A stretch of 64,000 nucleotides of DNA from Terriglobales bacterium. GTDB taxonomy: Bacteria; Acidobacteriota; Terriglobia; Terriglobales; Acidobacteriaceae. Positions 56,612-60,103 of the stretch are shown here, piece by piece; position 1 is the stretch's first letter; each line of letters starts with the position of its first letter. The position numbers and the translations under genes are program-made. Where the stretch lies: positions 1 through 64,000 of the forward strand of contig JAICWP010000002.1 of NCBI GenBank assembly GCA_025934735.1. The letters run 5' to 3'. The notes under the pieces are model-generated. The model had not been told where the DNA came from, made no database searches, and saw nothing but the letters and a program-made list of their open reading frames with translations.

Positions 56612-57853
56612 GTGTTCACCTTGCGCGCTTCCGAACTCATCTACGACTGGAACCAGTCCGCGCTGGCGCTGCGGCCCACCGGCCCGGTGCTGCTGAATGA
56701 CGAGAGCCTGCGGGATGGCCTGCAGTCTCCTTCCGTGCGCGATCCCTCGATCGCGGAAAAGATCCGCATCCTTCACCTGATGGACGATCTGGGCATCAAC
56801 ATGCTCGACCTGGGCCTGCCTGGGGCGGGGCCGCGCGCCTGCGAGCACGTGGAGGCGCTGGCGCGGGAGATTGCCCATTCCCGGCTGAAGATCAAACCCA
56901 ACTGCGCCGCGCGCACTCATCAGAACGATATTCGGCCCATTGCCGAGATTTCCCAGCGTGTCGGGCTGCCCATCGAAGCCGCCACTTTCATCGGCTCCAG
57001 CCCCATCCGCCGCTATACCGAAGGCTGGACCGACGACTTCCTGCTGCGCACCACGGAGGAGGCGGTGAAGTACGCGGTGTCGCTCGGCCTGGAAGTTATG
57101 TACGTCACGGAGGACACCAGCCGCTGCGAACCGGAAATGGTCAAGCGCCTGTACGCCACCGCCATCCGCAACGGCGCCCGCGCCATCGTGATTTGCGATA
57201 CTTGCGGGCACGCCACACCCATGGGAGTGTTCGCGCTGGTGAAGTTCGTGATGGATGAGGTGGTGAAACCCTCTGGGGAAAAGATTCGCGTGGACTGGCA
57301 CGGACACTGCGACCGCGGGCTGGGGGTGGCCAACTCGCTGGCGGCGCTGGTGGCGGGCGCGCACTGCGTGCACGCGTGCGCCCTGGGCATTGGCGAGCGT
57401 GTAGGCAATACGCAGATGGATCAGATGCTGGTCAACCTGAAGCTGATAGGCGTGCCGCCCTGGGACCGGCAGGACCTGACCAAGCTGCGCGAGTACTGTG
57501 TGGCGGTCTCGCAGGCCACCGGCGTGCCCATTCCCGCCAATTATCCCGTGATCGGCGAAGACGCTTTTCGCACCGCCACTGGAGTTCATGCCGCCGCTGT
57601 CATCAAGGCGTACAAGAAGAACGACACGGAGCTGGCCAACGCCATCTACTCCGGCGTGCCGGCGCATTATTTCGGCATGAAGCAGGTGATTGATGTTGGC
57701 CCGATGAGTGGCAAGTCCAACGTGCTCTTCTGGCTGGACCGCCACGGCATCGCCGCCAGCGACGAGATTGTGGACCGCATCTTCAAACGCGCCAAAGCTT
57801 CCGACCGCCTGCTCACCGAAGCGGAGATTCTGGAGTGCTGCCAGGCCACCTGA
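56612..57853 (+). CDS. HMGL-like enzyme (alpha-isopropylmalate synthase/HMG-CoA lyase superfamily)
   Basis: A 413-aa TIM-barrel protein of the HMGL-like superfamily (acyl-CoA lyases and aldol-type synthases using a divalent metal). Signatures: LLNDESLRDGLQSPSVRDPS with the catalytic Arg-Asp, VICDTCGHATPMGV and the metal-binding HGHCDRGLGVANSLAALV. No LeuA C-terminal regulatory domain is evident. It starts at GTG 56612, right after a repeat; an ATG two bases earlier is out of frame. The substrate is unknown. Confidence 0.8.
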   Translation: MFTLRASELIYDWNQSALALRPTGPVLLNDESLRDGLQSPSVRDPSIAEKIRILHLMDDLGINMLDLGLPGAGPRACEHVEALAREIAHSRLKIKPNCAARTHQNDIRPIAEISQRVGLPIEAATFIGSSPIRRYTEGWTDDFLLRTTEEAVKYAVSLGLEVMYVTEDTSRCEPEMVKRLYATAIRNGARAIVICDTCGHATPMGVFALVKFVMDEVVKPSGEKIRVDWHGHCDRGLGVANSLAALVAGAHCVHACALGIGERVGNTQMDQMLVNLKLIGVPPWDRQDLTKLREYCVAVSQATGVPIPANYPVIGEDAFRTATGVHAAAVIKAYKKNDTELANAIYSGVPAHYFGMKQVIDVGPMSGKSNVLFWLDRHGIAASDEIVDRIFKRAKASDRLLTEAEILECCQAT

Positions 57854-57912: not shown

Positions 57913-58461
57913 ATGAGCGGCTTACAGAGCCCGTATTGTTTTTATCGTACCTGGTTATGCCTCGCCGCTTTAAATGGGATTGGAATTGTTCTTCTCGCGG
58001 CATGTTCATACTCTGGCGTTGACCAAAAGACCTCGGGCGTGCACTTTCCAAGCGCACGGACGGAGAAGGACGGAGATACTTGGCTCATATGGGACAAAGC
58101 TCAAAGATTAGCCTTCATTAAAGGATATATTCAGGGTAATCGCGACGGTCATCAGAAAGGATGCGGAACAGCTGAGCAACTCATTGCCGCGAATGGCAAA
58201 GCCAGCAAGGTAATCAACATATTCAAGCCTTGCCTTGACTCGATGGCGTCCTTCACAGATGCAACCGGCAACTATGAGGCAAGTATCACGAGCTTTTATC
58301 AGAAGTACCCTGTGGACAGGGAGGTTCCCATGCGCTTGGTTCTGCAATTCATGTCTGATGAGAGCAGGAAAACGCCTGAGCAGATACACGGGTGGTTTGT
58401 GGCGCGTTGGGGCCCATGCGCCACCGCAGTAACCCTTGGGTGCCGACGTCCCGTAGCATGA
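57913..58461 (+). CDS. Putative lipoprotein of unknown function
   Basis: A 182-aa protein with a hydrophobic segment at about 15-30 followed by LLAACSYSG, a lipobox-like LAAC motif, so Cys31 may be lipidated. The rest is soluble with five more cysteines. No family is recognised. Codon use is less biased than in its neighbours, possibly a recently acquired gene. Confidence 0.45.
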   Translation: MSGLQSPYCFYRTWLCLAALNGIGIVLLAACSYSGVDQKTSGVHFPSARTEKDGDTWLIWDKAQRLAFIKGYIQGNRDGHQKGCGTAEQLIAANGKASKVINIFKPCLDSMASFTDATGNYEASITSFYQKYPVDREVPMRLVLQFMSDESRKTPEQIHGWFVARWGPCATAVTLGCRRPVA

Positions 58462-58861
58462 ATTGAAAGTAGCCCGCCACTTCAGTGGCGGGTAAGCTGC
58501 ATTCCAGAAACCCAGTCCCGGCAGGGACGGCTGAAGTCGCCAGTGGACGAAATTCGCTCTTATACCAGACCCTCAGTCGTCCCTCCGGGACTCTGGCCGT
58601 AACCTGCCACTCTCCCGCCAGTGAACTGGCGGGCTACTCTCAGCCGGTCTCTACGAGGTTGGTGAACTTGCGATTGCTTGCCACCTCTACGAACGCCAGG
58701 GAAACTCCGAGACGCACATTTTTTTTCCGATGCCGGCATGTCCTGCCGAGGGCGCAGCATGGGCTCACTGCGAAAGCGCGACTCGCTTCCTTACAGAAGA
58801 GTTCTTGTGTAGCAGGCGGCGTGCCAGACGGCCGCCGTTGTAATATGACTACTTCGCTCGT
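58462..58861. other. 400-base gap with a nested palindromic element
   Basis: No gene is supported. The first 180 bases contain the nested inverted repeat described separately (58468-58638). The rest (58639-58861) has one short open frame on each strand without recognisable content. It precedes the M20 peptidase gene and may carry its promoter, though no clear -10/-35 pair was found. Confidence 0.6.
58468..58638. repeat. Nested palindromic element (REP/MITE-like), 171 bases
   Basis: Outer terminal inverted repeats of 25 bases (58468-58492 and 58614-58638) match at 23 of 25 positions when one is reverse-complemented; each is itself a hairpin with a CCCGCCA/TGGCGGG stem. An inner inverted pair lies at 58514-58534 and 58573-58592 (AGTCCCGGCAGGGACGGCTG against TCAGTCGTCCCTCCGGGACT). 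The element has no gene inside. It resembles a miniature inverted-repeat element or BIME, but I cannot assign a mobilising enzyme. Confidence 0.8.
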
Positions 58862-60103
58862 ATGGCACCCGGTTCCCGTCCCGAAACGGTAGAAGCGGCG
58901 CCCTCCATCCAGGAGATCGCGCGCCTGGCCAGCTTGCCGCCGGTGCAATCCGCCTTTCGCTGGTTTGTCTCCCAGGAGCCGCAAATCGCGGCCTGGCAGA
59001 TGCAACTGGCGGGGATTCCCGCGCCGCCCTTTGGCGAAAGCGAACGCGCCGCCTGGCTGGCGGAGCGCTTCCGCGAACTCGGCCTCGACAACGTTCACCT
59101 CGATGACGTGGGAAATGTTTTCGGCATTCGCCGCGGGTTAGAGCCCAGCAACAAATTCCTGGCGGTGACTGCCCACATGGATACCGTGTTTCCTGCAGGC
59201 ACGGCGCTGCGCCCGCGCCGCGAAGGGACTCGCCTTTACGGTCCCGGAATTTCCGACAACGGCGCTGGCGTGGCCGCCCTGCTGGCTGCCGCCGCCGCCC
59301 TGCAGGAGGCCGGCATCCGGCACCTCGGCCCGCTGGTCTTTATCGGCAACGTGGGCGAGGAGGGGGAAGGCGACCTGCGCGGCATGCGCCACATTTTTGC
59401 CGACCCGCACTGGTCGGAGGCCATCGCCAGCACGCTGGTGCTGGACGGCGCAGGCACGGATTCCGTTGTGGCCGAGGCCCTGGGCAGCCGCCGCTTCGAA
59501 GTGGTGGTGCGCGGCCCCGGCGGACACTCCTGGAGCGACTTTGGCGCTCCCAATCCCATCATCGTGCTGGCCCGTGCGATTGAGCGTTTCGCGCAGGTGC
59601 GGGTCGCGGCCGTGCCCAAGACTACCTTCAACGTCGGCGTGATCCGCGGAGGCACCTCGGTCAACTCGATTCCGGAGTCGGCCAGCATGCGGGTGGACCT
59701 GCGCTCCACCTCGGCAGCGGAAATTGATCGTCTGGAAATGGCGCTGCGGGGGGCGCTGGATCAGGCGGTGACGGTGGACGGCGGCAGGATGCGAAACGGC
59801 GCGCTGACTTATGAGGCCAGCGTAATCGGCAGCCGGCCGGCGGGCGAACTGGAGTCCAATGCCCGCATTCTGCGCGTGATTCGCGCCGTGGATTCGCACC
59901 TGGGAAACCCTTCGCAGGTGCAGCGCGCCTCCACCGACGCCAATATTCCCCTCTCGCTGGGCCGCGAGGCCGTGGCTATTGGCGGCGGCGGCGCAGGCGG
60001 CGGCGCGCATACGGTGCAGGAATGGTTCGACAGCGCCGGCCGTGAACTGGCGCTGAAACGCATTCTGCTGGCGGTGCTGGCTTTGACCGGAGTTGCGGCA
60101 TGA
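58862..60103 (+). CDS. M20-family metallopeptidase
   Basis: A 413-aa di-zinc amidohydrolase-like peptidase. Metal ligands: VTAHMDTVF (His, Asp), ISDNGAGVAAL (Asp), NVGEEGEGDLRGM (Glu pair). A dimerisation insert (about 215-330, GPGGHSWSDFGAPN) is present, and the late GGGGAGGGAHT supplies the last His. Members are di- or tripeptidases or N-acyl hydrolases. The stop overlaps the next ATG (ATGA), so it is coupled to the amidohydrolase. Confidence 0.88.
   Translation: MAPGSRPETVEAAPSIQEIARLASLPPVQSAFRWFVSQEPQIAAWQMQLAGIPAPPFGESERAAWLAERFRELGLDNVHLDDVGNVFGIRRGLEPSNKFLAVTAHMDTVFPAGTALRPRREGTRLYGPGISDNGAGVAALLAAAAALQEAGIRHLGPLVFIGNVGEEGEGDLRGMRHIFADPHWSEAIASTLVLDGAGTDSVVAEALGSRRFEVVVRGPGGHSWSDFGAPNPIIVLARAIERFAQVRVAAVPKTTFNVGVIRGGTSVNSIPESASMRVDLRSTSAAEIDRLEMALRGALDQAVTVDGGRMRNGALTYEASVIGSRPAGELESNARILRVIRAVDSHLGNPSQVQRASTDANIPLSLGREAVAIGGGGAGGGAHTVQEWFDSAGRELALKRILLAVLALTGVAA

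Follow-up and report, generated by a model that had tools for sequence, protein, structure and literature searches.

The window, by which we mean the whole stretch of 64,000 nucleotides analysed (contig JAICWP010000002.1 of a Terriglobales bacterium), carries at 58464–58642 a unit of about 76 nt in two inverted copies, each made up of a GTAG-hairpin 1, a spacer of about 22 nt and a hairpin 2. This copy is intergenic: it directly adjoins the end of the open reading frame 57913–58461, and the M20 peptidase gene follows after 218 bp, at 58862. The plus-strand reading frame encodes 182 amino acids with no Pfam match and has a lipoprotein-like start (LLAAC). It is flanked by an HMGL-like gene (56612–57853) and the M20 peptidase gene (58862–60103), and its last codons and stop fall within a decayed outer hairpin.

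An earlier note on this DNA had described outer terminal repeats of 25 bases with 23 matching, each a hairpin, around a second inverted pair. Indeed, 58468–58492 and 58614–58638 match inversely at 23 of 25 positions, each arm forms a hairpin of 8 bp with a 4-nt loop, and both are enclosed by a 38-nt inverted repeat (58464–58501 and 58605–58642, 82% complementary). The nested pair was found at 58518–58534 and 58573–58589 (17 nt, 82%), its arms each reading as a 5-bp hairpin. The anatomy is better described, however, as one two-hairpin unit present twice in inverted orientation than as an outer plus an inner repeat. The unit runs from TGAAA-GTAG through hairpin 1 (8 bp, 4-nt loop), a spacer of about 22 nt and hairpin 2 (5 bp) to GGCTGAA.

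The first copy of this terminal unit (58462–58538, plus strand) scores 79.8 bits against R1, the covariance model introduced below, and is one of its training sequences. Its GTAG (58469–58472) lies at the 5' foot of hairpin 1 (58473–58492, 8 bp, loop TTCA), and hairpin 2 (58515–58528, 5 bp, loop GGCA) is followed by GGCTGAA. After a 30-nt centre (58539–58568), where the transposase gene sits in gene-bearing relatives, comes the inverted second copy (58569–58644, minus strand; 78.6 bits, likewise a training sequence), with hairpin 2 at 58579–58591 (5 bp, 3-nt loop) and hairpin 1 at 58614–58633 (8 bp). The plus-strand CTAC at 58634–58637 reads as the GTAG at the foot of this hairpin. Both outermost hairpins (hp0) of the window copy are degenerate. 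That of the plus unit (58446–58461), which contains the end and stop codon of the reading frame, retains no stem of 5 bp or more, and that of the minus unit (58646–58660) has the form GGTCTC-TAC-GAGGTT, compared with the intact GGTCTC-GTA-GAGACC at locus L008.

Folded as single-stranded DNA, 58462–58644 reached −52.7 kcal/mol, compared with −26.3 ± 3.2 kcal/mol for 200 dinucleotide-preserving shuffles (z = −8.4), and none of the 200 shuffles reached this value, which bears out the earlier judgement that four stems are too regular for chance. A match to the microRNA family RF04159 (25.2 bits, 168 required) was rejected as an artefact of the long inverted repeat.

Dispersal and decay of the unit

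The genome from which the window comes (4.94 Mb, 99.8% complete) gave 23 matches in a plain DNA search, query included, some of them one place matched on both strands. From 15 aligned units of this genome (alignment A2) we built R1, a covariance model with both hairpins. Including the training units, R1 detected at least 23 places in the same genome at E ≤ 1e-4 and at least 34 at E ≤ 0.05, counts that are lower bounds as 150 of 1487 candidates were scored. Among relatives, counted together with the window's own genome, 25 of 61 genomes had matches, as did at least 42 of 299 genomes of the class (E ≤ 1e-4; stricter filters and 16 candidates scored per genome make the counts for this set lower bounds). 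The other copies that the earlier note proposed to look for thus exist both in this genome and in relatives. Rather than being single-copy, without relatives and without trace of movement, the unit is multi-copy and shared.

The GTAG is invariant in the 15 own-genome units, and its first base varies in other genomes. A plain alignment of the 15 units contains compensatory changes in both stems. Across 146 distinct units, which had been fitted to the model before the count, 99.0% of cells were paired and 331 cells had changed on both sides, compared with 84 after shuffling. On the GTAG strand, G-T mismatches outnumbered A-C mismatches 24 to 9 (p = 0.014). This weak excess would fit recognition of that strand, with the qualification that G-U pairs are permitted there by the model to which the alignment had been fitted.

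Units often occur in inverted pairs with the GTAG ends facing outward, as in the window; such pairs were seen in the window's genome and in G059, G043 and G039. In 11 inverted composites inspected in G059, 13–16 nt separate the two units. No target-site duplication, the mark of a MITE derived from a DDE transposon, was evident by eye in these 11 composites, the element ends being only approximately placed. Three of these composites have outer flanks in common and may represent duplicates of a longer stretch. Several G059 composites (L071, L073 and L081; L072, L074, L077 and L080) are enclosed in turn by longer inverted sequences, such as GGTACTTGCA...TGCAAGTACC, and look as if they had been inserted into another palindromic repeat. 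A different arrangement was seen in G006 (L085, L089), where units stand in direct tandem with a period of about 150–190 bp, not in inverted pairs.

The units of the window's genome look old: an outer stem of at least 5 bp was kept in 5 of the 15, whereas beside transposase genes the figure is 27 of 32, and random windows have such a stem in 11.6% of cases. The 32 were drawn from the 38 units of 19 bracketed loci; L101 and L110 contributed none, and L109 and L113 one each.

Comparison of syntenic regions yielded no base-precise empty site, either in G010 and G017 or in genus g54 (G124, G336, G337 and G094). In G010 and G017 both neighbour genes are present and the element and the 182-aa reading frame are absent; since the reading frame is missing too, these genomes do not date the insertion of the element alone. 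Within g54, some G124 units are absent at the orthologous places of G336 and G337, together with their flanking sequence, while one unit of the first G124 pair is common to G336 and a degenerate one to G094. G094 has an insert of about 70 nt that was at first taken for a possible unit but proved not to be one.

An IS200-like Y1 transposase between inverted units

A partner gene came to light in G022, where the two units of a pair lie about 450 bp apart and a 148-aa open reading frame fills the gap (locus L088). Its product scores 58.8 bits against the IS200-like transposase model NF033573 (cut-off 55) and 27.3 bits against the RAYT model, whose cut-off is 80. The partner in relatives is an IS200-like Y1 (HUH) transposase of about 147 aa with the signature Y...Q..HH, and the gene-bearing element of about 0.6 kb consists of this gene between two inverted terminal units, each running from an outermost hairpin through a GTAG-type tetranucleotide with hairpin 1 and a spacer to hairpin 2. 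A search of the 299 class genomes with the L088 protein found matches at E ≤ 1e-15 in 71 of them.

To assess the association we took the best locus of 30 of the 71 gene-bearing genomes and counted R1 units at E ≤ 0.05 within 200 bp; L088 was kept out of the 30 because units had led to that locus. Of the 30 loci, 26 have units beside the transposase gene, 18 of them on both sides in inverted orientation (L105, for instance, has a unit on one side only); the distance to the gene is mostly less than 30 bp. The remaining four, L100, L102, L111 and L117, have no R1 unit at this threshold; the best match at L102 has an E value of 0.2 and was not counted. One transposase locus is common to two species of one genus (L091 in G124, L093 in G094), and in G094 two further units adjoin L093.

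All 30 proteins of the alignment A3 match Pfam Y1_Tnp. In A3, H54, H56, Y112, Q116 and H120 do not vary, H119 hardly varies, and the nearest solved structures by profile are transposases, including that of ISHp608 (2xm3, 2a6m; E about 1e-14). The window's genome contains no match to the L088 protein at E ≤ 1e-15. With the A3 profile, a RAYT locus scored best in that genome (E = 2e-8), and no IS200-like gene was found. A transposase with matching ends, which the earlier note had suggested looking for, was found in relatives, in the form of an IS200-like Y1 gene bracketed by inverted units, and was not found in the window's own genome.

Presence of the gene and presence of units are associated across the class. 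Of 71 genomes with the gene at least 27 contain R1 units (E ≤ 1e-4), and of the 228 others at least 15. The odds ratio is 8.7 (p = 1e-9 by a one-sided Fisher test, a statistic that ignores kinship). The association is not circular, since the only genome used to build R1 lacks the gene. Among the candidates scored, 44 of the 71 gene-bearing genomes gave no R1 match at E ≤ 1e-4; R1 derives from a single genome and is narrow. For the at least 15 of 228 genomes that have units and lack the gene, gene loss or another helper must be assumed.

We extended the survey to named genomes, taking the best 80 of 584 confirmed stretches. Among the matches listed, these loci come from Acidobacteria, Planctomycetes, Verrucomicrobia, Calditrichaceae, Lentisphaera, Bacteroidetes and others. 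At E ≤ 0.0015, R1 units lie on both sides of the gene in 26 of these best 80 of 584 loci and on at least one side in 38, the other 42 having none at this threshold. Inverted flanks can also be recognised without any model, by asking whether the upstream flank matches the inverted downstream flank better than the 99th percentile of mismatched pairs. By this measure, 53 of 79 genes (the best 80 of 584 minus L222, whose flank was too short) have inverted flanks and 26 of the 79 do not.

Controls gave a different picture for RAYTs, which the earlier note had proposed as a possible partner. At E ≤ 0.05 the unit is missing from all 30 canonical RAYT loci taken from the 299 class genomes, where the best match reaches E = 0.15, and from all five Y1 loci that the window's genome possesses (best E = 0.14). 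Nor was a unit found at any of 11 M20 peptidase loci in relatives that are orthologous to the one in the window. On these loci the partner is not a canonical RAYT. Three of the own Y1 genes exceed the RAYT model cut-off. The own RAYTs L024 and L025 (G000:C37:66122 and C10:125924) are flanked by another palindromic repeat, of the GGCACGGCTTCAGCCGTGCC type and GGCTTTAGCC, which makes a second repeat system in this genome. Motifs similar to this flanking palindrome occur in L036. Two Y1 genes are broken or partial: L027 (G000:C40) matches the RAYT model in two frames, and L026 (G000:C34) lies at a contig start.

The unit is also related to a catalogued RNA family. In a cmscan, the Rfam family RF01687 (Acido-Lenti-1, type sRNA) matched both window units at 26.3 and 23.9 bits, below the 37-bit cut-off, and in the window's genome it exceeded the cut-off at 29 dispersed places. 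These represent a sister subfamily with the same layout, some members of which R1 reaches. We ran RF01687 on 20 of 31 class loci and on 20 of the 80 named loci (themselves the best 80 of 584), counting outward-facing matches over the cut-off within 200 bp of the gene. Such matches adjoin 17 of the 20 class transposase loci (4 on both sides) and 13 of the 20 named loci (7 on both sides). Of the four class loci that lack an R1 unit, the three covered here (L100, L102 and L111) each have an RF01687 match at an end. The Lentisphaera MAG locus L231 has inverted flanks, yet no RF01687 match over the cut-off stands beside its gene. The RF01687 motif comprises hairpin 1, CTA, about 10 nt and a second hairpin, and judged by this layout it appears to be the outer part of such ends (hairpin 1 and the outermost hairpin) on the opposite strand. 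Given this correspondence and its position at the ends of transposase genes, RF01687 is better read as a transposon end than as an sRNA gene.

Origin of the gene-less pair

We consider it highly probable that the feature in the window is a non-autonomous, gene-less, REPIN/MITE-like relic of an IS200-like Y1 transposon that spread in trans via single-stranded DNA. The reading as a miniature transposable element or BIME, already offered by the earlier note, gains support from the other copies and from the transposase with matching ends in relatives. The window copy keeps both ends, with 30 nt where the gene would be. We infer that such pairs were mobilised in trans by a transposase of the IS200-like Y1 family. 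The transposase would have attached to the units as these folded in single-stranded DNA, made cuts close to their feet, at positions that can be placed only approximately, and excised or copied the pair. Gene-less pairs would have moved in trans, as proposed for REPINs (PMC3116915). The published account of Y1 transposases and TnpAREP in PMC8266576 is that these enzymes cut and join single-stranded DNA and recognise hairpins, the choice of cut site is aided by a tetranucleotide at the 5' foot, and an inverted REP is neither bound nor cut. The window's genome may have lost the transposase or never kept it, in which case its copies would now be decaying relics.

The closest competitor is a classical REP/BIME pair mobilised by its own RAYT, a class 2 REP-associated tyrosine transposase. 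The GTAG, the inverted doublet and the several own Y1 genes, three of them over the RAYT cut-off, would fit this, as would the greater frequency of units in genomes with a RAYT (at least 39 of 198, against at least 3 of 101 without). Among genomes without an IS200-like gene, however, this correlation falls to at least 12 of 132 with a RAYT against at least 3 of 96 without (p = 0.06), which leaves room for a RAYT playing a minor role in trans. The absence of the unit at E ≤ 0.05 from all five own Y1 loci and all 30 class RAYT loci, and the different palindrome beside L024 and L025, make the explanation unlikely. Membership of the classical RAYT REPs, defined by a cognate RAYT flanked by the same repeat, was rejected on the same loci. 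Somewhat less likely still is a host use of the pair, for example as a transcription terminator or an mRNA-stabilising structure after the reading frame 57913–58461. The pair sits directly at the end of that frame, 218 bp before the M20 gene, and roles of this kind have been proposed for REPs (PMC3733652); against it, two syntenic relatives lack the pair and the outer hairpins have decayed. Host use is in any case compatible with a transposon origin, origin and later use being separate questions.

That the units are an Acido-Lenti-1 non-coding RNA gene seems to us quite improbable. RF01687 does match both of them, Rfam types the family as sRNA, and the stems show compensatory changes, but both window matches fall below 37 bits, the family is dispersed over 29 own-genome places above the cut-off and lies at the ends of transposase genes, and a hairpin that is recognised as single-stranded DNA would be expected to show compensatory change just as well. 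We attach next to no weight to chance, or to an intrinsic property of GC-rich intergenic DNA. Its one argument is that the loose outer-hairpin pattern is only mildly rare: allowing up to 3 mismatches, the window holds 3 matches (the two arms with 0 mismatches and a third place with 3) against 0.76 expected, and as 5 of 100 shuffles reach this count, the pattern test is weak on its own. The folding energy (z = −8.4) and the related copies in this and other genomes already refute it.

Returning to the gene-less relic of an IS200-like Y1 transposon, a broader picture seems probable, if held with a little less assurance than the origin of the window copy itself. The transposases would form a widespread IS200-like Y1 family in Acidobacteriota, Planctomycetota, Verrucomicrobiota and other phyla, with inverted multi-hairpin ends, REPtron-like and independent of RAYTs. 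Their ends would escape as gene-less inverted pairs and become genome-wide repeats; these ends would be what is catalogued as the Acido-Lenti-1 sRNA, and transposases with the signature of this family have been classed as without IS properties. The family may be a living intermediate between IS200/IS605 elements and REPs. It would offer a way to test how single-strand IS200/IS605 transposition is linked to REP/REPIN repeats. It also gives Y1 transposases, of a signature group described in PMC6006769 as lacking IS properties, their end sequences and dispersed copies of these. The same results suggest that the Rfam sRNA family RF01687 be re-examined as transposon DNA, upon which doubtful RNA annotations would go.

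Comparison with known systems

With IS200/IS605 elements such as IS608 and ISDra2 the family shares a Y1 HUH transposase, hairpins near both ends and a tetranucleotide at the 5' foot. IS200/IS605 elements insert 3' of a fixed short target without a target-site duplication, and we know of no classical member with terminal inverted repeats. In contrast, the ends described here are inverted copies of each other (53 of 79 genes, the best 80 of 584 minus L222).

By its signature the transposase resembles TnpA subclass 1.2, whose Y---Q--HH (PMC6006769) corresponds to the invariant Y112, Q116 and H120 and the nearly invariant H119. That subclass is characterised in the same source as low-copy, found mostly in Cyanobacteria and Bacteroidetes, and generally without typical end structures or IS properties, whereas the genes considered here, compared with it by description only, have inverted hairpin ends and dispersed copies. 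Class 3 TnpA genes, which the source places in Acidobacteria and Planctomycetes with atypical hairpin flanks in high copy (about 600 in Solibacter usitatus), are similar in occurring in the same phyla and in being flanked by high-copy hairpins. They differ in the Y motif, Y----Q (YV[VI][AENY]EQ), and in a CnGA foot in place of GTAG (PMC6006769). TIRYTs and TIRtrons, too, are Y1 transposases with terminal inverted repeats, some of them Acidobacterial and some with dispersed repeats (PMC3733652), and share with the present elements a Y1 transposase flanked by inverted terminal repeats. Their terminal repeats are described there as mostly unrelated to GTAG repeats, so that the two are set apart by description only; of 26 TIRYT proteins, 20 were later assigned to subclass 2.1 and the others to 2.2 and 2.5. 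Assignment of hairpin 2 to the CGTC REP superfamily, which has a CGTC foot, a stem of 8–9 bp with A-T first pairs and a CCA-like tail (PMC3733652), was rejected: CGTC does occur on the opposite strand, but the stem is G/C-rich and has 5 bp.

RF01687 shares with the units hairpin 1, CTA and an adjoining second hairpin, as well as the position at the ends of transposase loci. It differs in being filed as an sRNA and in representing, from the opposite strand, the outer part of an end, and the window copies remain below its cut-off. The 2010 paper carries a 'y' for Acido-Lenti-1 under 'RNA?' and an 'n' for cis-regulatory (PMC2864571). The literature searched, whose coverage excludes most subscription journals and bioRxiv preprints, yielded no link between Acido-Lenti-1 and a transposase.

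The likeness to REPINs and BIMEs with TnpAREP (RAYT) extends to the GTAG at the 5' foot of the hairpin, inverted doublets that form one long hairpin, dispersed gene-less copies and a Y1 transposase in the family. Here, however, two or three hairpins make up each unit, and the gene between the units is of IS200-like type with the signature Y...Q..HH. The element thus works like a REPIN but stands outside the classical RAYT REPs, as a gene-less derivative of an IS200-like Y1 transposon with unusual inverted ends.
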